Below are positions 8,923 through 23,010 of a stretch of 64,000 nt of DNA, piece after piece (the stretch's first letter is position 1; every line of letters begins with the position of its first letter). The notes beneath the pieces are model-generated. The model was not told the origin of the DNA. It searched no databases and saw nothing but the letters and a program-made list of their open reading frames with translations. Source of the stretch: Candidatus Latescibacterota bacterium (GTDB lineage: Bacteria; JAAXHH01); assembly GCA_022821085.1 (NCBI GenBank), contig JAJEEG010000006.1, forward strand, positions 580,405 to 644,404, written 5' to 3'. The position numbers and the translations under genes were made by a program.

Positions 8923-10533
8923 GTGCCTTCACCGTCCAGACCGAACATCCTGTGGATTTCCTTCGAGGATACCGGCCCTTACTACGGTTGCTACGGCGAC
9001 CCGGTGGCCCGCACGCCGAACGTGGACCGCTTCGCGGAGGAAGGGTGCCGGTGGACGCGCTGCTTTTCCACATCGGGGGTATGCGCCCCGGCCCGTTCGG
9101 CCATCATCACCGGGATGTACGCCATCTCCATCGGCACGCACCACATGCGGACCACCCACTTCGACTCCGCTACGCCTGAATTGCCCACGCCTTATTCCGC
9201 GGTCCCGCCCCACTACGTCAAGTGCTTCACCGAATACCTGCGGGCGGCGGGCTACTACTGCACGAACAATTTCAAGACCGACTACCAGTTCGAGCCGCCG
9301 CTGACGGCCTGGGACGAGCTGGGAAAGGATGCCCACTGGCGCAACCGGCCCGATCCGGACCAGCCTTTCTTCGCGGTCTTCAACCTCATGCGCAGCCACG
9401 AGAGCGGGATGTGGCCGGAAAAGTGCCCTTCACCCGAGTTCGATCCCGACGTCATCGAGCCGCCGCCCCATCTGCCCGACACGCCGGTCGTGCGGGAAGC
9501 CCTTGCCCGCATGTACACGCATATTGCCCACAACGACCTGGAATTCGGTTCCATACTGGGTCAGCTGGAAGCAGACGGGCTCGCCGGGCATACCCACGTC
9601 TTCAACTGGAGTGACCACGGCCCGCTGCCCCGGGGCAAGCGCTGGCCCTATGACGCGGGCATCCACGTGCCGCTCATCGCGCGGGGTCCGAACCTGGAAG
9701 CCGGGCGGGTATGCGAAGACCTGGTCAGCACGATCGACCTGGGCCCCACGATGCTGTCCCTGGCCGGCGTCGAAGTCCCGCACCATATCCAGGGCCACGC
9801 CTTTCTCGGGGAGCAGGCCAGACCGCCACGGGAATACGTCTTCGCCAGCCGGGATCGCCATGACGTGTCCTACGACATGGTCAGGGCCGTGCGCGACAGC
9901 CGGTACAAGTACATCCGGAACTACCGGCCCGATCATCCCTATCTATCCTGGATACCCTACCGCAACCGCCATCCGATCATGCAGGAGATCTGGCGGCTTC
10001 ACCTGGAGGGCGGCCTGGACGAGGCCCAGTCGGCCCTGTTCCGGTACCCCAGGCCCGTCGAAGAGTTCTACGACACGGCGGTTGATCCGCACGAAATACA
10101 CAATCTGGCCGCCGATCCGCTGTTCCGCGGTGACCTGGAGCGGATGCGCGGGGCGCTCGACACATGGCTCGAGGAAGTGGGCGACCTGGGCCGGATTTCC
10201 GAGAGCGAGATGGTCGGAAACTGGTATCCGGGCGGCCGCCAGCCGGAGACCGCTCCCGTAGTCTGTGTGCCCATATGTACCGAAAGCCCCGGGATCGACC
10301 CGGCACTGGAGGGCGGCTCGTTCGAAGGGCCCATGCAGCTGCAGCTTCACTGCGCCACGCAGGGCGCTTCCATCGCTTACACGCTCCAGACAGGGGATGA
10401 CCCCCACTGGCTGTTGTATTCCGAACCGCTGCGTCTTCACGCCGGTGACTACCAGGTGCGGGCCCGGGCGATACGCATAGGATACCGGGAAAGCCCCGAG
10501 ATCCGGGCGAGGTTTGTGGTTAGGCAAGCCTAA
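8923..10533 (+). CDS. Sulfatase with C-terminal chitobiase/hexosaminidase-C-like domain
   Basis: RPNILWISFEDTGPYYGCYGDPVARTPNVDRFAEEG; formylglycine motif C-A-P-A-R in SGVCAPARSAIITG; C-terminal beta-domain 'SIAYTLQTGDDPHWLLYSEPLRL'. GTG start. Confidence 0.93.
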   Translation: MPSPSRPNILWISFEDTGPYYGCYGDPVARTPNVDRFAEEGCRWTRCFSTSGVCAPARSAIITGMYAISIGTHHMRTTHFDSATPELPTPYSAVPPHYVKCFTEYLRAAGYYCTNNFKTDYQFEPPLTAWDELGKDAHWRNRPDPDQPFFAVFNLMRSHESGMWPEKCPSPEFDPDVIEPPPHLPDTPVVREALARMYTHIAHNDLEFGSILGQLEADGLAGHTHVFNWSDHGPLPRGKRWPYDAGIHVPLIARGPNLEAGRVCEDLVSTIDLGPTMLSLAGVEVPHHIQGHAFLGEQARPPREYVFASRDRHDVSYDMVRAVRDSRYKYIRNYRPDHPYLSWIPYRNRHPIMQEIWRLHLEGGLDEAQSALFRYPRPVEEFYDTAVDPHEIHNLAADPLFRGDLERMRGALDTWLEEVGDLGRISESEMVGNWYPGGRQPETAPVVCVPICTESPGIDPALEGGSFEGPMQLQLHCATQGASIAYTLQTGDDPHWLLYSEPLRLHAGDYQVRARAIRIGYRESPEIRARFVVRQA

Positions 10534-10696
10534 CCGGCGCGACGGCGAGCCACGGCCAGCGCGACCGTGAATAACAGCCCGGGGCCCGGGTGCGCCCGGC
10601 CCGGTCTTCAAATGGGTTGACCATCGGGTTGTCAGTCGTTAACAAAATACGGTTAGAATCCGTGACGTATGGGCGTACCGAACCCGGAGACCCGCC

Positions 10697-11548
10697 ATGG
10701 ACCCTTCCTGTCTCGCCTACAGTCTGACGGACGAAGAGCGGAAACGCTTCGATGACCAGGGATATTTCATCGTGGAGGACGTCCTGCCGTGCGACATGGT
10801 CGAAGCCCTGGGACGGATCGCGGACCGCATCGACGCGGAATGCCGCCCGAACATGGGGGGCGGCCCCTACAGCATCAAGAACCACTTCGACATCATCGGC
10901 CAGGACGATCTGCTGCTGGAACTGCTCGACTGGCCGAAGACCTTTCCCAAGGTCTGGGGTATTCTCGGCTGGCACATCCAGCTGTACCATTCCCATTTGA
11001 TCGTCTCGCCCGCATGCCCGGCGGACCAGAAGCCTAAAAAACGGCGCCTGGGCTGGCACCAGGACAGTGGAAGGCTCAATATTGACCTGGAGACCACGCC
11101 CCGTCCGCGGGTGTCGCTGAAAGTGGCCTTCTTCCTGAGCGACTGCACGGCGACCGACCGGGGCAACTTCCACGCCGTTCCGGGCAGCCACCGGAGCGAC
11201 GTGATCGAGTTCCCCGATGAAGCCGAACGGGATCCGGAGGGCGCCGTCCCGATCCTTGCCGCGGCCGGAGACGCCGTGTTCTTCGATCGCCGGCTCTGGC
11301 ACGCATCCGGGATCAACTATTCCGACATTACCCGCAAGGTGCTGTTCTACGGCTACAGTTACCGCTGGCTGCGTCCCCGGGACAACATGACGGTCGATCA
11401 CTACATGGACCGCAGCGACCCCATCCGCAGGCAGCTTCTGGGCGCCGGGCCTTCGGGCGGCCATGGCTTTACTTCGCCCCTGCCCGAAGACATCCCCCTG
11501 CGCGAATGGATCGGCAAGCACGCGGGCCCGGAATTCGTGATAAGCTGA
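10697..11548 (+). CDS. Phytanoyl-CoA dioxygenase (PhyH) family protein
   Basis: Fe(II)/2OG motif: WHQDSGRLNID, GNFHAVPGSHRSDVI, DRRLWHASGINYS. Confidence 0.92.
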   Translation: MDPSCLAYSLTDEERKRFDDQGYFIVEDVLPCDMVEALGRIADRIDAECRPNMGGGPYSIKNHFDIIGQDDLLLELLDWPKTFPKVWGILGWHIQLYHSHLIVSPACPADQKPKKRRLGWHQDSGRLNIDLETTPRPRVSLKVAFFLSDCTATDRGNFHAVPGSHRSDVIEFPDEAERDPEGAVPILAAAGDAVFFDRRLWHASGINYSDITRKVLFYGYSYRWLRPRDNMTVDHYMDRSDPIRRQLLGAGPSGGHGFTSPLPEDIPLREWIGKHAGPEFVIS

Positions 11549-11559
11549 GGCGGTCCTGC

Positions 11560-11853
11560 ATGAGTGATTCCACCGGAGACCTGGCGGAACAGCAGGCCCT
11601 GCTCGACCGGATCGCCGAAGCCGTGGTCGCGCGCGAGCTCACCGCGCCCGCGGTCCTCTTCCTGGAATCCATGAAACCCCTCTCGTTCCTGGGCGGCCAG
11701 TTCATGGCTTTTTTCAGCCCCTTCATTCACATGGTGGTGGACGCGTCGGACTACGACCGGATCGCCGAGGCCATCGAGCGCCGGGAGAACGTGGAGTTCC
11801 TGATCCAGCGCATAGAGCATCACGCCTCCGGGGCGGATGACACAGCCAACTGA
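11560..11853 (+). CDS. Conserved small hypothetical protein upstream of the GlmL-like gene
   Basis: MSDSTGDLAEQQALLDRIAEAVVARELTAPAVLFLESMKPLSFLGGQFMAFFSPF...; overlaps the following ORF. Confidence 0.65.
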   Translation: MSDSTGDLAEQQALLDRIAEAVVARELTAPAVLFLESMKPLSFLGGQFMAFFSPFIHMVVDASDYDRIAEAIERRENVEFLIQRIEHHASGADDTAN

Positions 11854-13660
11854 CTCCATGTCTCTTCCAACAGAAACCAACGTCATCCTGGCCACGGACT
11901 GCGGCAGCACGACCACCAAGGCGATCCTGATCGAGCGACGCGACGGCGCCTACCGGCTCGTCGTTCGCGGCGAGGCGCCGACGACCGTGGAAGCGCCCTT
12001 CGAAGACGTCACGCGGGGCGTCCTCAACGCGGTGCGCGAAGTGGAGGAGCAGTCCGGCCGCGAGATCCTCGACGGAGAACGGATCGTGTCGCCCGCCGAG
12101 GGCGGCCGCGGCGTGGATATCTACGTCTCGACGAGCAGCGCCGGCGGCGGGCTCCAGATGATGGTGGCCGGCGTGGTCAAGAGCATGACCGCCGAGAGTG
12201 CCGAACGGGCGGCGCTCGGCGCGGGCGCCATCGTCATGGAAACCCTGGCCTCCAACGACGGGCGTCTGCCCCACGAGCGCATCGAACGCATCCGTCAGCT
12301 CCGGCCGGACATGATCCTGCTGTCCGGCGGCGTGGACGGCGGCACGAAGTCCCACGTTGTCGAGATGGCCGAACTGATCGCCGCGGCGGACCCGAGACCC
12401 CGGCTGGGCAGCGGCTACGATCTGCCGGTCATCTACGCCGGGAACGCCGACGCCCGCGAAGACATTGCCCGGATTCTGGCCGATCGGACGGAACTCAGCC
12501 GGGTGGACAACCTGCGGCCCGTGCTCGAAGCGGAGAACCTGGGTCCCGCCCGGGAACAGATCCATACCCTGTTCATGGAACACGTGATGGCCCAGGCGCC
12601 CGGGTACGGCGACCTGATGGCGTGGACCCACGTGCCGATCATGCCCACGCCCGGCGCCGTGGGACGGATGGTGCGGGTCGTCGCGGAACGAAACGGTATC
12701 GACGTGCTGGGCGTTGATATCGGCGGTGCGACCACCGACGTGTTTTCGGTCTTCGGCGGCGTGTTCAACCGGACCGTCAGCGCCAATCTCGGCATGAGCT
12801 ACAGCATTTCCAACGTGTTGACGGAGGCGGGCCTGGAGGCCATCGCGCGGTGGCTGCCCTTTGAGATTACCGACGCCGACCTGAAGGACCGCATGGGCAA
12901 CAAGATGATCCGGCCCACCAGCATTCCCCAGACCATGGAGGAGTTGATCATCGAGCAGGCTGTGGCCCGCGAGGCCCTGCGGCTGGCCTTCGAGCAGCAC
13001 AGGAACTTCGCCGTCGAGTTGAAGGGCGTTCAACAGCTTCGGACGATATCGGACACCTTCGACCAGCAGACGGGCGGCCGGACCCTGGTCGACCTGATGA
13101 ACCTGGACCTGATCATCGGCAGCGGGGGCGTGCTCTCCCACGCGCCGGGCCGGGCGCAGGCCGCGCTGATGATGGTGGACGCCTTCCAGCCGGAGGGCAT
13201 CACGAACCTGGCGGTGGACAGCATCTTCATGATGCCCCACCTGGGCGTGCTGTCGACCGTGCATGAAACCGCGGCGCTGGAGGTGTTCGACCGGGATTGC
13301 CTCGTCCATCTCGGCCCATGCGTTGCGCCCGTGGGTACCGGGGCGCCCGGCTCCCCGTGCGCCACCGTCCGGGCGAGGTCGGACGACGGGGAATGGACGC
13401 ACGAGGCGGCCGTGGGCGAACTGGCCGCGATCCCGGCCGGAGAGGCGGAGGAGATCGTCCTGGAGGTCGCGCCGTCGCGCGGATTCGACGCCGGTGCGGG
13501 ACGGGGCGTGCGTGTCGACCGTAACGTGCGGAACGGCCCCCTGGGCGTGATCATCGACACCCGCGGCAGGCCGCTTCAACGGCCGAAGGACGCGGCTGTA
13601 CGGGTAGAAACGCTGCAAAGGGAATACCGCGCACTCGACCTCTATCCGGAGCCGGGATGA
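11837..13660 (+). CDS. GlmL/MutL-like ASKHA-fold protein (glutamate mutase accessory protein family)
   Basis: VILATDCGSTTTKAILIE phosphate-1 motif; GVDIGGATTDVFSVF phosphate-2 motif; LSGGVDGGTKSHVVEMAELI; IIGSGGVLSH. True start may be 11858 (MSLPTETN). Confidence 0.88.
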   Translation: MTQPTDSMSLPTETNVILATDCGSTTTKAILIERRDGAYRLVVRGEAPTTVEAPFEDVTRGVLNAVREVEEQSGREILDGERIVSPAEGGRGVDIYVSTSSAGGGLQMMVAGVVKSMTAESAERAALGAGAIVMETLASNDGRLPHERIERIRQLRPDMILLSGGVDGGTKSHVVEMAELIAAADPRPRLGSGYDLPVIYAGNADAREDIARILADRTELSRVDNLRPVLEAENLGPAREQIHTLFMEHVMAQAPGYGDLMAWTHVPIMPTPGAVGRMVRVVAERNGIDVLGVDIGGATTDVFSVFGGVFNRTVSANLGMSYSISNVLTEAGLEAIARWLPFEITDADLKDRMGNKMIRPTSIPQTMEELIIEQAVAREALRLAFEQHRNFAVELKGVQQLRTISDTFDQQTGGRTLVDLMNLDLIIGSGGVLSHAPGRAQAALMMVDAFQPEGITNLAVDSIFMMPHLGVLSTVHETAALEVFDRDCLVHLGPCVAPVGTGAPGSPCATVRARSDDGEWTHEAAVGELAAIPAGEAEEIVLEVAPSRGFDAGAGRGVRVDRNVRNGPLGVIIDTRGRPLQRPKDAAVRVETLQREYRALDLYPEPG

Positions 13661-14784
13661 TGGCCCATGCCTATACATCCGGTCTGCGTGTATCCTCCCG
13701 GACCGTCGTTGCCAGGACGCGCCGTCTACCGCTGAGCGGCCAGGTGCTGGTGAATGTCGGCGACCAGGTAAGACCCGACACGGTGGTCGCCGAAACCTAC
13801 CTGCCCGGCCCGGTGCACAACGTCAATGTGGCCAATGCCCTGGCCATCGCACCCGATGAAGTACCGGGCTGCATGCTCAGGCAACGGGGCGAACCGGTGG
13901 CGAAAGGCGAGTTGATCGCCGAATCGAAGGGGATCTTCGGTCTGTTCAAGTCCAGCGTCCGGAGTCCCGAAAGCGGCACGATCGAAATGGTATCGGATGT
14001 GACCGGGCAGGTGCTCATCCGGGAACCGTCGACCCCGGTGCGGATCAACGCCTACCTCGACGGCACGGTCACCGAAACACTACCCGGTGAGGGCGTCGTG
14101 GTGGAAACGGCCGGCGCCTGCATTCAGGGGATCTTCGGCGTGGGGGGCGAAACGCACGCGCCCATATGCCAGATCGTTCAATCGCCCGAGGACGAGGTCA
14201 CCGGCGAAATGATCGATGACCGCCTGCGGGGCATGATCGTCTGTTGCGGATCCATGATCACCCTTGACGCGCTGCGTAAGTTGATAGAGGTCGGCGCGTC
14301 CGGCGTGGTCGTGGGCGGCATGCGGTACCACGATATCGGCGACCTCCTGGGATACCAGATCGGCGTCGCGGTGACCGGCGGGGAAGACATCGGACTGACC
14401 ATGATCGTCACCGAGGGATTCGGACGCCTGCCCATGGCCGAACGCACTTTCGAACTCCTCCGTTCCCTGCAGGACCGCGAAGCTTCCCTGAGCGGCGCCA
14501 CGCAGATCCGGGCCGGTGTGATCCGTCCCGAGATCATCATCAAATCCGACGGTGGCGAGGCGACTTCGGATCGGGCGAGCACGGCCGGCCGCGGCCTTGA
14601 AGCCGGTTCGCTGGTACGCCTGATCCGCGAACCCTGGTTCGGGGAACTCGCCACGGTGGCGTCGCTGCCTGAACAGCCTGTGCGGCTTCCCACGGGCGCA
14701 TTCGCCCGGGTGCTGGAAGCGCGCAGGACCAACGGAACGCTCGTGACGGTGCCCCGGGCGAACGTGGAGATCGTGGAGACCTGA
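13657..14784 (+). CDS. Uncharacterised protein translationally coupled to the GlmL-like gene; lipoyl/barrel-sandwich-like N-terminus
   Basis: Overlaps the upstream stop; RRLPLSGQVLVNVGDQVRPDTVVAETYLPG and SPESGTIEMVSDVTGQVLIREP have the Gly-turn pattern of barrel-sandwich domains. Confidence 0.8.
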   Translation: MMAHAYTSGLRVSSRTVVARTRRLPLSGQVLVNVGDQVRPDTVVAETYLPGPVHNVNVANALAIAPDEVPGCMLRQRGEPVAKGELIAESKGIFGLFKSSVRSPESGTIEMVSDVTGQVLIREPSTPVRINAYLDGTVTETLPGEGVVVETAGACIQGIFGVGGETHAPICQIVQSPEDEVTGEMIDDRLRGMIVCCGSMITLDALRKLIEVGASGVVVGGMRYHDIGDLLGYQIGVAVTGGEDIGLTMIVTEGFGRLPMAERTFELLRSLQDREASLSGATQIRAGVIRPEIIIKSDGGEATSDRASTAGRGLEAGSLVRLIREPWFGELATVASLPEQPVRLPTGAFARVLEARRTNGTLVTVPRANVEIVET

Positions 14785-15761
14785 TGTACCTTTTTTCGAC
14801 CACCGGCAGACCGCCAGGCGTACCCCATTCGAACGGACTGTCGCGCGCGGTCCCCGCCTTCGCGGCGATCTTCGCCTTGTCGCGCGCGGTCCCCGCCTTC
14901 GCGGCGATCTTCTCCCTGCTGCAGGCGGATCCCGTTTTCGCCCAGGCCGCCTCCGAATCCGGCTGGTTCAACGCGGACCGGACCCAGGCCCTGGTCCTGG
15001 GGATCATCCTGACGGGCGCTATCCTGCTCTACGTCGTGCTGGCCTCCGCGGGCCGGCCGCTGTTCATACGCAAGATCGCCGGCCTGGACACGGTGGAGGA
15101 AGCCGTGGGACGGGCGACGGAGATGGGCAAGCCCATCCTCTACGTCCCCGGCCTGAACGACATGGACGAGGTGCAGACCATCGCGTCCATGAACCTGCTG
15201 GGCCATCTCGCCACCATCATCGCGGGCTACGATTCCAGGCTGCACGTGCCGGTACGCAAGTCCCTCGTCATGAGCGTGGCCCGGGAAACCGTGCAGCAGT
15301 CCTACCTGTCCGCGGGCCGCCCCGACGCCTACCAGGAGGACGACATTCACTACGTCTCGGATGCCCAGTTTGCATACGCGGCGGCCGTCGACGGCATCAT
15401 CGTGCGGGAAAAGCCGGCCGCCTGTTTCTACCTGGGCGGGTTCTACGCCGAGTCCCTGATCCTGGCGGAAACGGGCAACTCCATCGGGGCCATACAGATC
15501 GCGGGAACGGCAAGGCCGCCCCAGCTGCCCTTCTTCGTGGCGGCCTGCGACTATACGCTGATCGGGGAGGAATTGTTCGCCGCCAGCGCGTACCTGTCCA
15601 AGGAACCGCGCATGCTGGGCAGCCTGAAGGGACAGGACGCCGGCAAGGGCATCGCCATCGTATTCATCCTGGCCGGCAGCGCGCTGGCCACCCTTTATTC
15701 CGTTACCGGAAGTGAAACCGTCCGCGAAGTCTCCGAAATCGTGCTCTGGCTTTTCAGGTAG
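14784..15761 (+). CDS. DUF6754-like membrane protein
   Basis: TM segment LVLGIILTGAILLYVVLA followed by RPLFIRKIAGLDTVEEAVGRATEMGKPILYVPGLNDMDEVQTIASMNLLGHLA...YLGGFYAESLILAETGN. Overlaps the upstream stop. Confidence 0.75.
   Translation: MYLFSTTGRPPGVPHSNGLSRAVPAFAAIFALSRAVPAFAAIFSLLQADPVFAQAASESGWFNADRTQALVLGIILTGAILLYVVLASAGRPLFIRKIAGLDTVEEAVGRATEMGKPILYVPGLNDMDEVQTIASMNLLGHLATIIAGYDSRLHVPVRKSLVMSVARETVQQSYLSAGRPDAYQEDDIHYVSDAQFAYAAAVDGIIVREKPAACFYLGGFYAESLILAETGNSIGAIQIAGTARPPQLPFFVAACDYTLIGEELFAASAYLSKEPRMLGSLKGQDAGKGIAIVFILAGSALATLYSVTGSETVREVSEIVLWLFR
14839..14912 (+). repeat. In-frame 39-bp tandem duplication in the signal/TM region
   Basis: tgtcgcgcgcggtccccgccttcgcggcgatcttc repeated with period 39, encoding LSRAVPAFAAIFA-LSRAVPAFAAIF. 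Confidence 0.95.
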
Positions 15762-15766
15762 ACCCC

Positions 15767-16447
15767 ATGCGCCGTAGAATACCTCTTATCATCACTTTCA
15801 TCATCGGTGTGGTCCTGATCACGGGTTACTTCGTGACTCGGGGCCCCTTCAACACGCTCTACGAGAGCTTCTCGGACTACTTCGCCATCATTACCGTCTT
15901 TGCGTTCATCCTCGGTGGCGGCAGCCTGCTCAAGATACATCTGAAACGCGTTTCCAGCCGCGCCGCGGACTGGCCCTACAGCGTGGTCACCCTGGTGGCC
16001 TTCCTCGTCACCCTGGTGATCGGCCTGTTCAAGGTGGGCAACCCCGGCGGGATGAGCGGGGAAATCCTGGCCTCGGGTTCCTGGCTGCGGTTCATGTTCG
16101 ACGGGGTCTACAATCCGCTGTCGGCCACCATGTTCTCCCTGCTGGCCTTCTTCGTCGCCTCGGCGTCCTACCGCGCCTTCAGGGCGCGCACTAAGGAGGC
16201 CACCATCCTCCTGTCGGCCGCCCTGGTCATCCTGCTGGGAAGGACCCCCGTAGGGGCCTGGATGACGGCCTGGATGCCGGAAAGCCTGGCATTCCTCGAA
16301 CTGCCGAACCTGGCCAACTGGATCATGGCCTGGCCCAATACGGCCGGCCAGCGGGCCATCATGATCGGCATCGCCCTGGGGGTCATCGCGACTTCCCTGC
16401 GCATCATCCTGGGGATCGAACGCAACTACCTGGGCCGGGGAGAGTAA
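15767..16447 (+). CDS. Uncharacterised polytopic membrane protein
   Basis: 226 aa; RRRIPLIITFIIGVVLITGYFV... multiple TM; starts 5 bp after the upstream stop. Confidence 0.8.
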   Translation: MRRRIPLIITFIIGVVLITGYFVTRGPFNTLYESFSDYFAIITVFAFILGGGSLLKIHLKRVSSRAADWPYSVVTLVAFLVTLVIGLFKVGNPGGMSGEILASGSWLRFMFDGVYNPLSATMFSLLAFFVASASYRAFRARTKEATILLSAALVILLGRTPVGAWMTAWMPESLAFLELPNLANWIMAWPNTAGQRAIMIGIALGVIATSLRIILGIERNYLGRGE

Positions 16448-16449
16448 GC

Positions 16450-17325
16450 ATGCGGATTCCCGATTCCATCCTGCGGATCGACCGCCGGATCATCTTCCTG
16501 CTCATCGGGGCGGCGGTCTGCATCCCGCTGATCCTGAAACCCCGCTTCCAGGACAGTCCCACGCCCATCGTACAGTCGATCTTCGACACCGTGGAACGGC
16601 TTCCGGCCGGGTCGCGGGTGTTCCTTTCCTTCGACTACGGTCCGGACACCGCACCCGAACTCGACCCCATGGCAAAGGCCCTCGTGCGGCATACGATGAC
16701 CCGCGGCCACGAAGTGTCCTTCTTCACCCTGTTTCCCGAAGGGGTGGGACAAATCAAGAAGATCACGGACAACCTGCTGCCCGTGGAGTTCCCGGACAAG
16801 GCGTACGGGCGGGACTACGTGAACCTGGGGTACAAGGCCGGACTGGGCGGCGCGATCAACACCATGGTGGTCAACTTCCGGACCCTGGTCAATGCCGACG
16901 CGGAGGGCACGCCGCTCGACGACCTGCCCATAACCGCGGACGTGGACGAGATGGTGGACTACGTCATCATCCTGAGCCTGACCGCGGGGGATCCGGGACT
17001 GAAGGAGTGGATACAGTTCGCGGGCGACATCGCGGGGATCCCCGTCATGGGAGGCGGCACGGCCGTGGTGGCGCCGGAACTCTATCCCTACTATCCCCAG
17101 CAGCTGGTCGGGCTGATGGGCGGCCTCAAAGGGGCCTCCGAGTACGAGTCCGCCCTGGTGGACCGGTATCCGACCTACCGGAACGCCACCATGGAGGCCA
17201 CCATGCGCATGGGTCCCCAGGTCGTGACCCACGTGTTGATCGTCCTGCTGGTCCTGCTGGGCAACCTGGCCTACTTCCTTGGCCGGTCTGACCGGAGGAA
17301 CCGGGCAGGCCGGACGGGCCAGTGA
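16450..17325 (+). CDS. Uncharacterised membrane-anchored protein with N- and C-terminal TM helices
   Basis: N-terminal TM IIFLLIGAAVCIPLIL, soluble domain SRVFLSFDYGPDTAPELDPMAKALVRHTMTRGHEVSFFTLFPEG, C-terminal TM VLIVLLVLLGNLAYFLG. Confidence 0.8.
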   Translation: MRIPDSILRIDRRIIFLLIGAAVCIPLILKPRFQDSPTPIVQSIFDTVERLPAGSRVFLSFDYGPDTAPELDPMAKALVRHTMTRGHEVSFFTLFPEGVGQIKKITDNLLPVEFPDKAYGRDYVNLGYKAGLGGAINTMVVNFRTLVNADAEGTPLDDLPITADVDEMVDYVIILSLTAGDPGLKEWIQFAGDIAGIPVMGGGTAVVAPELYPYYPQQLVGLMGGLKGASEYESALVDRYPTYRNATMEATMRMGPQVVTHVLIVLLVLLGNLAYFLGRSDRRNRAGRTGQ

Positions 17326-17363
17326 GACCGAGCACGCCAGGGCCGGACGGGCCAGTGAGACCG
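17309..17363 (+). repeat. Direct repeat, 22 bp x2 with period 33, spanning the stop codon
   Basis: gccggacgggccagtgagaccg at 17309 and 17342; the first copy contains the TGA stop of the preceding ORF. Confidence 0.9.
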
Positions 17364-17436
17364 GGCAGGCCAGGGGAGCCGGGCCGGCCTTACGAGCCAG
17401 GGGGCCGGATCTGACGCCGGCCATCGAGGACTTTTT

Positions 17437-18111
17437 ATGGACGTAACGCTGATGCTCTGGATCGACGCGGCCCTCACGCTGATGATCCTCAGCTTCCTCT
17501 ACCGGGACAATCCCTTCTACAAGTTCGCCGAACACCTGTTCGTCGGTGTTTCGGCCGCTTACCTGATGGCCGTCGGGTTCTGGGACCACCTGGTGCCGAA
17601 TCTGCTCGGCAAGCTGTTCCCTTCGCTCATGTCGGGGGTCGTGCCCGGCGCCGTGGGTCGATCGCCGGACTACTACTACCTCATCCCCGCCGTATTCGGC
17701 ATGCTGCTGCTCACCCGCCTGATCGACCGCTGGGCCTGGCTCAGCCGCTGGGCCCTGGCCTTCATCGTCGGCGGCGCGGCGGGGTTCAACCTGCCCCGCT
17801 TCCTCGATTCGGACTTCATCATCCAGGTCCAGAGCACCATGATCCCCCTCGTGGTACTCGACGCTTCGGGCAACCTGCTCTGGGGCGCCAGCTTCTCCCA
17901 CGTCGTGCTCGTCCTGGGCGTGATCTGCGGCCTGGTGTACTTTTTCTTCTCCGTGGAGCACAAGGGCGCGCTGGGACACGTGTCCCGCGCGGGGATCTGG
18001 GTGCTGATGGTGACCTTCGGCGCGGCCTTCGGGTACACGGTCATGGCGCGCATCTCCTTGCTGACCGGCCGGATGGAAGCCCTCGGCGCCTGGCTCGGTT
18101 CGATCTTCTGA
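17437..18111 (+). CDS. Uncharacterised polytopic membrane protein
   Basis: 224 aa, multiple hydrophobic segments: MDVTLMLWIDAALTLMILSFLYRDNPFYKFAEHLFVGVSAAYLMAVGFWDHL. Confidence 0.8.
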   Translation: MDVTLMLWIDAALTLMILSFLYRDNPFYKFAEHLFVGVSAAYLMAVGFWDHLVPNLLGKLFPSLMSGVVPGAVGRSPDYYYLIPAVFGMLLLTRLIDRWAWLSRWALAFIVGGAAGFNLPRFLDSDFIIQVQSTMIPLVVLDASGNLLWGASFSHVVLVLGVICGLVYFFFSVEHKGALGHVSRAGIWVLMVTFGAAFGYTVMARISLLTGRMEALGAWLGSIF

Positions 18112-20605: not shown

Positions 20606-21688
20606 CTATTTCGGCGCTCTGACCAGCAAAATCAAGGCCAGCAGGCAGAAGAGGGCGTTGGCGCCCCAGGCCGCCGCCACGGGATGGAGCAATCCGGCGT
20701 GTCCGAAGGCCTGTGCAAAGCGGAGCAGCCCCCAGTAGACGAAACATATACCGATACTCAGGGCAAATCCCACCGCTACGCCGCCCCGTCTCAGGTGAGA
20801 GGCCAGCGCGCCGCCCAGTAGCACGATGATCAGGCCCGCGCTCGGGAAGGCGATCTTCAGATTGAGGTCTACCAGGTAGCCCTGCACGTCTCCGCCGCCT
20901 AGCCGGACGTTCTGAATCAACTCGTCGAGCTCGCCGTAGCTCATCTCCTCGGGTCGTTTCTGCCCCCGCATGAAATCTTCCGGTGTTTCGGACCATCCGT
21001 CCGGTTCCCGTTCGGCGAATGTGATGTATTCGGACAATCCGCCTCCCGTCCGGAACCGCCGTTCCTCCCCGTTGGAAAGCAGCCAGCGCCCGTCGTTCCA
21101 GACCGCGCTTTCCGCCGAGAGCACGCTGGAGACGAGGCTGTCGCGGAATTCGGTGACGAAAACCCCCGTGCCCTTCGCGTCGTGTCCGTCGAATACGCGG
21201 ATATAGAACTGGCGCCCTCCCTCTCCCCTGAAATACACGTCGTTCCGGACGTGCTGCCCTGCTCCGTCCTGGATGTCGACGTGTTCCGATTGGATTTCGG
21301 CCCGTTTCATGCTCGTATGGGGCACGAGCCATTCACCGGCCCAGAACAGGCACCCGCTCACCACCGCGCTGACGAGGAGCATGGGCCGCAGCAGCCGGTA
21401 CAGACTGAGCCCCGATGCCTTCATGGCGGTCAACTCGCCCAGCCTGGTCAGTTGACCGAAGGTATACAAGCTGGCGAGCAGCAGGCTGACGGGAATCGTG
21501 AGTACGAAGATATAAGGCGTGTAGTAAACGTAGTAGAGCGCGATGTATACCGGGGCCACCTCGCGGTCCAGGAATCGGTCCAACTGCTCGATGAGATCGA
21601 CCACGAAGAAGATGCTGACGAAGGCGACCAGGCCGACGGCGATGGCGGTGATGTACAGGCGGAGCACGTACCGGGTGATCAGGGACAT
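20606..21688 (-). CDS. LptF/LptG (YjgP/YjgQ) family permease
   Basis: MSLITRYVLRLYITAIAVGLVAFVSIFFVVDLIEQLDRFLDR...FGQLTRLGELTAMKASGLSLYRLLRPM. Confidence 0.9.
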   Translation of the reverse strand: MSLITRYVLRLYITAIAVGLVAFVSIFFVVDLIEQLDRFLDREVAPVYIALYYVYYTPYIFVLTIPVSLLLASLYTFGQLTRLGELTAMKASGLSLYRLLRPMLLVSAVVSGCLFWAGEWLVPHTSMKRAEIQSEHVDIQDGAGQHVRNDVYFRGEGGRQFYIRVFDGHDAKGTGVFVTEFRDSLVSSVLSAESAVWNDGRWLLSNGEERRFRTGGGLSEYITFAEREPDGWSETPEDFMRGQKRPEEMSYGELDELIQNVRLGGGDVQGYLVDLNLKIAFPSAGLIIVLLGGALASHLRRGGVAVGFALSIGICFVYWGLLRFAQAFGHAGLLHPVAAAWGANALFCLLALILLVRAPK

Positions 21689-21783
21689 GAAACGGCGTTC
21701 CTCCGGTTATATCGATGCGATTCGAAACGGATCCAAGCGTGGCCAAGGTTGACCAGGCTGTCCAGGCTTGACCAAGCTGTCCG

Positions 21784-23010
21784 TCAGACGCGGTCCCTGC
21801 CGGTAACCCAGACCAGGACAGCGCCGGGGACCCCGATGACGATATTCGCCGCCCACATCGCCCAGACTGGATCGACCAGGTCGCGGTCCGCCAGTTCCTC
21901 ACCGCCCAGCAGGCAGGCCCAGTACAGCAGGAAGAAGCACAGGCTGACGCCCACGCTGACGCCGAGGCTGCCGCGGCGGATGCGAACCCCCAGCGGCGCG
22001 CCGATCAGTACGAAGACGAAACAGGCCGCTGAAATGGCGTACTTCTTGTGGATCTCCACGATGTAGCTGTTCTTCTGCCGCTGTCTCAGCGAGACCGTCC
22101 GCTCCGCACGGTCCCTCGCCGCCTCGAGGGAGTCCTCCGTCGCCTCCGGGGAATCCGGCGCGGCTGCCATGTTCGCCGATACTTCGTCGATCTCCTTCTG
22201 CCACTCATCGATTCTGGCGCGCATCATCTCGATGTTCAGCTCGCGGTCGCCCCGGATTCCCGCATCCGACCGCTGGACGCCGGCCGGTTCGGTGCGGATC
22301 GTAAACCGCTGCCTCTCGAAGATCTCTTTGAAATAGCGCCCCGAAGATTCGTCCTGCTGAAGCAGTTCTCCGTCGTACAACATGAGGTCGAGCCGGCTGC
22401 CCGTCTCGTTGACGTGGAATTCTCCGGACATCGCCGTCATAAGGCGCGGGTAGCGCTTGTTCTCCGTTTCGTAGATGGTGATTCCGGAGATTTCGTTGTT
22501 TCTCGGGTTGACCCGGTCGATCAGGATGCTGTATCCCGGAATGTCCTTCATGAATATGCCCGCGGTGAAGAGCAGCGTGGGACGCGCCCGGTGGATGTCG
22601 TTCATGAGCGAGCGCGCCCGGTAGTTGGCTTCGGGCAGTATGACGTCCATGAAGAACAGGTGGCCGCTCCCCAGGAGGATGCCCGCCGCCAGGACCGGCG
22701 AGACCATCTGAAAGAAACTGACGCCGCCTGCCTTGAGCGCCGTGACCTCGTTATCGGCCGACAGCCGCCCGAAGGCCATGAGGCTGGCGACCAGCACGGA
22801 CATGGGGATCGATACGGCGACGATCCAGGCCAGGTTGAGGAAGAACACCTCGAGCACGATGAACAGGTCGAGGTTCTTGCCGATGATGAGGTCGGCGATC
22901 TGAAATATGATGTCCATCACGAGGATGAACGTGATGATCACGAATGAAAAAAGGAAGGGACCGACGTGCGCCTTGAACACGTATCGGTAGAGGTGAACAG
23001 GGAGGGTCAT
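21784..23010 (-). CDS. LptF/LptG (YjgP/YjgQ) family permease
   Basis: HLYRYVFKAHVGPFLFSFVIITFILVMDIIFQIADLIIGK...FGRLSADNEVTALKAGGVSFFQMVSPV. Confidence 0.9.
   Translation of the reverse strand: MTLPVHLYRYVFKAHVGPFLFSFVIITFILVMDIIFQIADLIIGKNLDLFIVLEVFFLNLAWIVAVSIPMSVLVASLMAFGRLSADNEVTALKAGGVSFFQMVSPVLAAGILLGSGHLFFMDVILPEANYRARSLMNDIHRARPTLLFTAGIFMKDIPGYSILIDRVNPRNNEISGITIYETENKRYPRLMTAMSGEFHVNETGSRLDLMLYDGELLQQDESSGRYFKEIFERQRFTIRTEPAGVQRSDAGIRGDRELNIEMMRARIDEWQKEIDEVSANMAAAPDSPEATEDSLEAARDRAERTVSLRQRQKNSYIVEIHKKYAISAACFVFVLIGAPLGVRIRRGSLGVSVGVSLCFFLLYWACLLGGEELADRDLVDPVWAMWAANIVIGVPGAVLVWVTGRDRV

Follow-up and report, generated by a model that had tools for sequence, protein, structure and literature searches.

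A conserved gene cluster pairing a MutL-type ASKHA ATPase and a barrel-sandwich protein with a duplicated four-gene membrane cassette

We analyzed a window of 64,000 nucleotides (nt) from a Candidatus Latescibacterota bacterium (contig JAJEEG010000006.1, positions 580,405 to 644,404) that contains, at window positions 11560-18111, a cluster of seven closely spaced + strand genes encoding an operon-type MutL ATPase of the ASKHA fold, a barrel-sandwich protein (BSH), the 97-amino-acid (aa) protein g115, and a cassette of four membrane proteins. An open reading frame (ORF) check found all seven frames to be open. Neighboring genes overlap or stand 2-5 nt apart, with a sole larger gap of 111 nt before tm224. 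These ORFs and their spacing confirm the tightly coupled operon that an original prediction, made from the sequence of the window, had placed here. The genes of the cluster, with transmembrane helices abbreviated as TM, are as follows:

11560..11853, + strand: g115, 97 aa, first gene of the unit, with an in-frame ATG also at 11506
11837..13660, + strand: operon-type MutL, a 607-aa ASKHA-fold ATPase (Pfam PF13941)
13657..14784, + strand: BSH, a 375-aa soluble protein with an N-terminal barrel-sandwich, a middle domain, and a C-terminal SH3/KOW-like part
14784..15761, + strand: DUF6754 protein, with a signal-like N terminus, a TM, a predicted cytosolic alpha/beta domain, and a TM
15767..16447, + strand: tm226, a polytopic membrane protein, cassette gene 2
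16450..17325, + strand: m291, with a TM, a predicted periplasmic alpha/beta domain, and a TM, cassette gene 3
17437..18111, + strand: tm224, a polytopic membrane protein, cassette gene 4

The same prediction treated the gene at 17437 as a follower of the others, but tm224 is itself part of the unit and the fourth cassette gene in other genomes. The predicted count of three membrane proteins, one with a soluble domain between two TMs, required correction to four membrane proteins (DUF6754, tm226, m291, and tm224), two of which (DUF6754 and m291) have such a domain.

Only two of the seven products belong to clear Pfam families. MutL matched PF13941 over its full length (435 bits, E=4.6e-130), and the DUF6754 protein matched PF20539 with 395.4 bits (E=1.2e-118; gathering score, 27 bits). 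The BSH of the window showed a weak match to the RnfC_N barrel-sandwich (E=4.5e-4; 20.7 bits versus a cutoff of 25.6), and BSH members, with a mean column identity of 69%, gave weak but repeated matches to RnfC_N, Biotin_lipoyl, NQRA_N, and KOW; against PDB sequences, the matches were to the RNA polymerase beta-prime barrel-sandwich and the Spt5 KOW, both below significance. No Pfam or NCBIfam match was found for g115, homologs of which occur directly upstream of mutL in Acidobacteria, Planctomycetes, and Eisenbacteria and near mutL in a Calditrichota-labelled genome. The window's tm226 and m291 proteins had no Pfam match. We observed conserved motifs in tm226 (SASYRAFRA and GQRAI..GI.LG..A.SLR.ILGIER) and tm224 (SFLYKDNPFYKFAEHLFVG and YFFFSKEHKG) and no conserved cysteines in either protein. 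A match of tm224 to AveC_like was rejected, as it was below cutoff and seen in just 3 of 37 members.

A scan with the DUF6754 protein yielded 78 loci, on which iterative profiles for all seven proteins were then mapped. These loci, by the names in their records, span Zixibacteria, Eisenbacteria, Latescibacterota, Cloacimonadota, Acidobacteria, Planctomycetes, Fermentibacteria, and others. The order DUF6754-tm226-m291-tm224 on the same strand was found for 105 of the 126 DUF6754 copies, with 18 more truncated by a contig end and only 3 deviating. One of these three reflects masked sequence, and the genomes of the other two hold cassette genes elsewhere. We rejected an apparent DUF6754-protease fusion in L074 as an artifact of a masked run of N. 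In L032 and L043, DUF6754 only seems to be an orphan, as the remaining cassette genes lie elsewhere in the genome. Recurrence of this gene set and order at loci of many phyla indicates that the cluster is not a chance arrangement, and the original prediction, which would have fallen had these genes failed to co-occur in other genomes, held on this point. The module is ancient and has been held together across many phyla.

Two or three tandem cassettes are present in 31 of the 78 loci, and additional copies are dispersed through genomes, up to seven. In a tree of concatenated cassette proteins, Zixibacteria cassettes fall into three separate groups according to their tandem position, first (A), second (B), or third (C), and the single cassettes of most other phyla, including that of the window, join the second-cassette group (support 0.89). 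Together, the fixed gene order and the separate A, B, and C paralog clades indicate, at the level of sequence, that the four genes have been inherited and duplicated as one unit. Split cassettes (L043 and L178 of genome G022; L082) still retain all parts. Within the phylum of the Zixibacteria-labelled genome G026, m291 was found in 80 of 80 sampled genomes, mostly in 4-5 copies with a maximum of 7. DUF6754 is present in all 12 genomes of the window's genus that we examined, including the window's own. Elsewhere in the window's small phylum, mutL and bsh of one same-family genome lie at the edge of a contig, with m291 on a different one, and three other genomes have neither BSH nor m291. No DUF6754 was found on plasmids. 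As separate observations, the L082 cassette (10832-16370) is interrupted by inserted genes, including those for Por_Secre_tail and NYN-domain proteins, with all four cassette genes kept, and two highly divergent cassettes (L177:4059-8082 and L186:2124-6064; DUF6754 at 85-95 bits) have an exported bacterial SH3-domain protein encoded upstream.

MutL and BSH accompany the cassette even when encoded apart from it. In 20 DUF6754 genomes picked for having no mutL near cassettes in the DNA examined, BSH was found in all 20 and PF13941 in 18, often on another contig. Exactly one stand-alone BSH was present in 12 of these genomes, each with 2-7 cassettes; even where cassettes are numerous, a genome has one stand-alone BSH, and most such genomes have only one operon-type MutL. 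Of 297 Acidobacteriota genomes taken in an even draw, 4 carried DUF6754; BSH was present in 3 of these 4 and nowhere else in the sample, an overlap with a chance p of ~1e-6, uncorrected for relatedness. Operon-type MutL members keep the phosphate-1 (DCGSTTTKA), phosphate-2 (DIGGATTDV), and adenosine (GSGGVLSHAP) motifs and have a C-terminal extension not found in GlmL. We also identified four proteins, 930-967 aa long, in which MutL is fused to BSH; they form the sister clade to operon-type MutL and have no adjoining mutase gene:

L123:8589-11489: MutL-BSH fusion
L124:8013-10799: MutL-BSH fusion
L125:3600-6398: MutL-BSH fusion
L126:8135-10984: MutL-BSH fusion

These fusions suggest that MutL acts in contact with BSH. 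In several Zixibacteria (L044, L057, L059, L072, L073, and L132), genes that by eye are TolQ/TolR-, TonB/TolA-, and TolB-like follow bsh, and a secreted protein of 240-260 aa is encoded between mutL and bsh.

GlmL has been described as a chaperone that reactivates glutamate mutase (PMC4682846), and it shares with operon-type MutL the PF13941 family, the ASKHA ATPase core, and the ATPase motifs. One could therefore regard MutL here as an orphan GlmL, a glutamate-mutase reactivase that lies by accident in an unrelated operon. However, operon-type MutL scored 237.1 bits against NCBIfam GlmL (NF040745), under the 475-bit equivalog cutoff, and 224.2 bits against the ornithine Or-4 family (NF040744), under its 600-bit cutoff; Or-4 is an ATPase of the same superfamily, but no ornithine aminomutase context was seen for operon-type MutL. 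As the original prediction maintained, no B12 mutase subunit is encoded here: GlmS and GlmE profiles matched nothing in the window or any DUF6754 locus, and the genome-wide search for mutase homologs that it proposed did not find GlmE (PF06368) in the window's whole genome (96% complete), in which B12-binding proteins are encoded elsewhere, away from the cluster. Among the 297 Acidobacteriota genomes, PF13941 exceeded cutoff in 16, of which 3 had operon-type proteins; of the 13 others, 12 adjoin GlmS and GlmE and the 13th is an Or-4-like protein on a short contig. Operon-type MutL is monophyletic (support 98/95, with a mislabelled L069 fragment inside), and the branch from the operon-type and fusion clades to GlmL/Or-4 is very long, although long branches make the position of some GlmL proteins uncertain. 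Neighborhood and tree, both drawn from sequence, cleanly separate the two: unlike GlmL, operon-type MutL has a longer C-terminal tail, its own clade, and BSH and membrane cassette partners conserved with it across phyla, without GlmS or GlmE. We therefore rejected a glutamate-mutase accessory role, and the orphan GlmL explanation is hardly credible and for practical purposes refuted.

We next consider the topology of the membrane proteins. Predicted models of DUF6754 (pLDDT 89.6) and m291 (pLDDT 93.3) each consist of a TM, an alpha/beta domain, and a TM, and the two proteins showed no support for mutual homology (hhalign probability, 1.4%). DUF6754 has 46 invariant columns across 52 diverse sequences. 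Most of its homologs have an exported N-terminal Fn3 domain, with PDB titin/fibronectin matches down to E=6e-58 and a Pfam fn3 match in 13 of 38 members. An exported Fn3 puts the alpha/beta domain on the cytosolic side; K/R counts of 4.3 after TM1 versus 1.4 before it agree with this orientation by the positive-inside rule. By the same rule, a near-invariant DRR ahead of TM1 places the m291 domain outside, in the periplasm. Thus, in the predicted topology the two alpha/beta domains lie on opposite sides of the membrane, that of DUF6754 cytosolic and that of m291 periplasmic. At 14840-14915, where most homologs have a signal peptide and Fn3, the window's DUF6754 N terminus has a short tandem duplication (SRAVPAFAAIFAL / SRAVPAFAAIFSL).

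These findings lead us to propose, at about even confidence, that the products of the cluster form a complex spanning the membrane, with a single MutL-BSH ATPase serving it from the cytosol. In this model, DUF6754, tm226, m291, and tm224 would assemble into a single inner-membrane complex, with the near-invariant alpha/beta domain of DUF6754 in the cytosol and its Fn3 domain outside in most lineages, the alpha/beta domain of m291 in the periplasm, and polytopic tm226 and tm224 connecting the two. MutL and BSH, with g115, would form one cytosolic ATPase unit for all copies of the complex in a cell. Judging from GlmL-type reactivases and other ASKHA proteins, MutL may bind and hydrolyze ATP and, via BSH, remodel or energize the cytosolic face of DUF6754, so that a cytosolic ATP cycle would alter the state of the periplasmic domain. 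A remodeling role is proposed by analogy to the described activity of GlmL as a reactivating chaperone (PMC4682846). Inheritance as a unit, co-occurrence, one BSH for many cassettes, the sister-clade fusion, intact ATPase motifs, and topology are the features of the model that the sequences support; physical assembly, use of ATP, coupling of MutL-BSH to DUF6754, and the direction of signal or force are inferred from them. The membrane complex with an ASKHA ATPase that the original prediction suggested is thus supported as the best reading of the cluster.

Several observations weigh against this model. Physical association is deduced indirectly, from co-duplication, co-occurrence, and the MutL-BSH gene fusion. 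Two of the 20 genomes above lacked MutL (1.6 and 2.2 Mb, possibly incomplete), and in one Acidobacteriota genome with DUF6754 on short contigs, neither BSH nor MutL was found. Fn3 is not universal and has been lost in the window's own DUF6754 protein. Foldseek searches of both soluble domains against the PDB gave no match at E <= 1e-3, so that nothing supports a specific biochemical activity; the only matches were Rossmann-like, with query-normalized TM-scores of <= ~0.36 that are not interpretable. Profile searches against PDB sequences likewise gave nothing significant for DUF6754, m291, BSH, tm226, or tm224. Finally, across the 78 loci and 20 extra cassette loci, no conserved genes outside the cluster were found beyond lineage-level synteny: Zixibacteria have Tol-like genes along with pyruvate phosphate dikinase and a basic protein of 104 aa, and two genomes have glycine-cleavage genes (all named by eye). 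Neighboring genes therefore provide no substrate clue.

Other explanations fit parts of these data. The cluster might encode an ATP-driven transporter with a permease and a periplasmic receptor (m291), in which MutL-BSH is a shared energizer and paralogous cassettes carry different substrates. In ECF transporters, multiple S-components share one ECF ATPase module, which resembles the apparent service of many membrane partners by one ATPase unit here, and the two polytopic subunits, a soluble domain on either membrane side, and the ratio of 1-7 paralogous cassettes to a single BSH and, for most genomes, a single operon-type MutL would suit such an arrangement. However, the ECF ATPase is an ABC ATPase rather than an ASKHA protein, no sequence relation was found, no transporter family scored over cutoff, substrate genes are not co-located with cassettes, and, to our knowledge, no transporter is powered by an ASKHA-fold ATPase. 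Transport is only a candidate role, and we consider it unlikely.

A membrane-bound cofactor enzyme or redox complex, with a cofactor loaded or repaired by MutL-BSH as is held for GlmL and glutamate mutase, would accord with the reactivating chaperone role described for the MutL family (PMC4682846), the enzyme-like conservation of DUF6754, and the weak BSH matches to RnfC_N, NQRA_N, and Biotin_lipoyl. The Rnf and Nqr ion-translocating complexes similarly combine several membrane subunits with a peripheral barrel-sandwich protein. However, B12-binding, Fe-S, and biotin motifs were recognized in none of the genes, the genome's B12-binding proteins are located elsewhere, and tm226 and tm224 are without conserved cysteines; we consider such an enzyme or complex quite unlikely. 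Neither the window proteins nor members of A2, A4, and A5 had Pfam matches to Rnf/Nqr membrane, Fe-S, or flavin subunits, no NADH-binding subunit was recognized, and an RnfC/NqrA-like peripheral subunit was not over cutoff (RnfC_N as above; RsxC, E=0.16). An envelope sensing or signaling complex, with Fn3 and m291 as periplasmic sensors and DUF6754 as the reporter to the cytosol, is very unlikely; Fn3 outside with an alpha/beta domain inside and the exported SH3 protein encoded upstream of divergent cassettes are in keeping with it, but the genes conserved next to cassettes include no kinase, nucleotide cyclase, or regulator. An anti-phage defense system was rejected, as PADLOC models matched none of the seven proteins. 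PilM/GspL-type ASKHA proteins work on inner-membrane platforms with single-pass membrane proteins and by this description resemble the cluster, but pilus or secretion genes are not conserved in cassette loci.

The flanks of the cluster are syntenic in close relatives only, and the phytanoyl-CoA dioxygenase-like and sulfatase genes upstream and the nucleotidyltransferase-like and MetK-like genes downstream lie outside the unit. The sulfatase-family and phytanoyl-CoA dioxygenase-family genes occupy 8923-11548, immediately upstream of the cluster, and two membrane proteins encoded on the - strand at 20606-23010 resemble, by eye only, an LptG/LptF permease pair.

In the open-access literature searched, outside of which lie subscription papers and preprints, we found no mention of DUF6754, PF20539, or PF13941, and "glutamate mutase L" occurred once, in a ThiC paper. 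Of the components, the ATPase alone falls in a described family, and none of the characterized systems that we could compare is like the four-part membrane module; on these grounds, we judge the system, not its function, to be new, with an existing description possible in subscription papers or preprints. With slightly less than even confidence, we suggest that the cluster represents an undescribed class of membrane machine in FCB phyla, Planctomycetes, and some Acidobacteria, in which many paralogous four-subunit complexes are powered or maintained by a single actin-like ASKHA ATPase together with a barrel-sandwich partner. Proteins likely annotated as "glutamate mutase L" in such genomes need not concern glutamate mutase, which matters for metabolic reconstruction from metagenomes. 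Presence of the cassette in every sampled genome of one phylum, usually in 4-5 copies, implies that its role in large groups of bacteria, most of them uncultured, is probably a basic one. If MutL energizes or remodels these complexes, it would put the actin-like ATPase fold to a new use.

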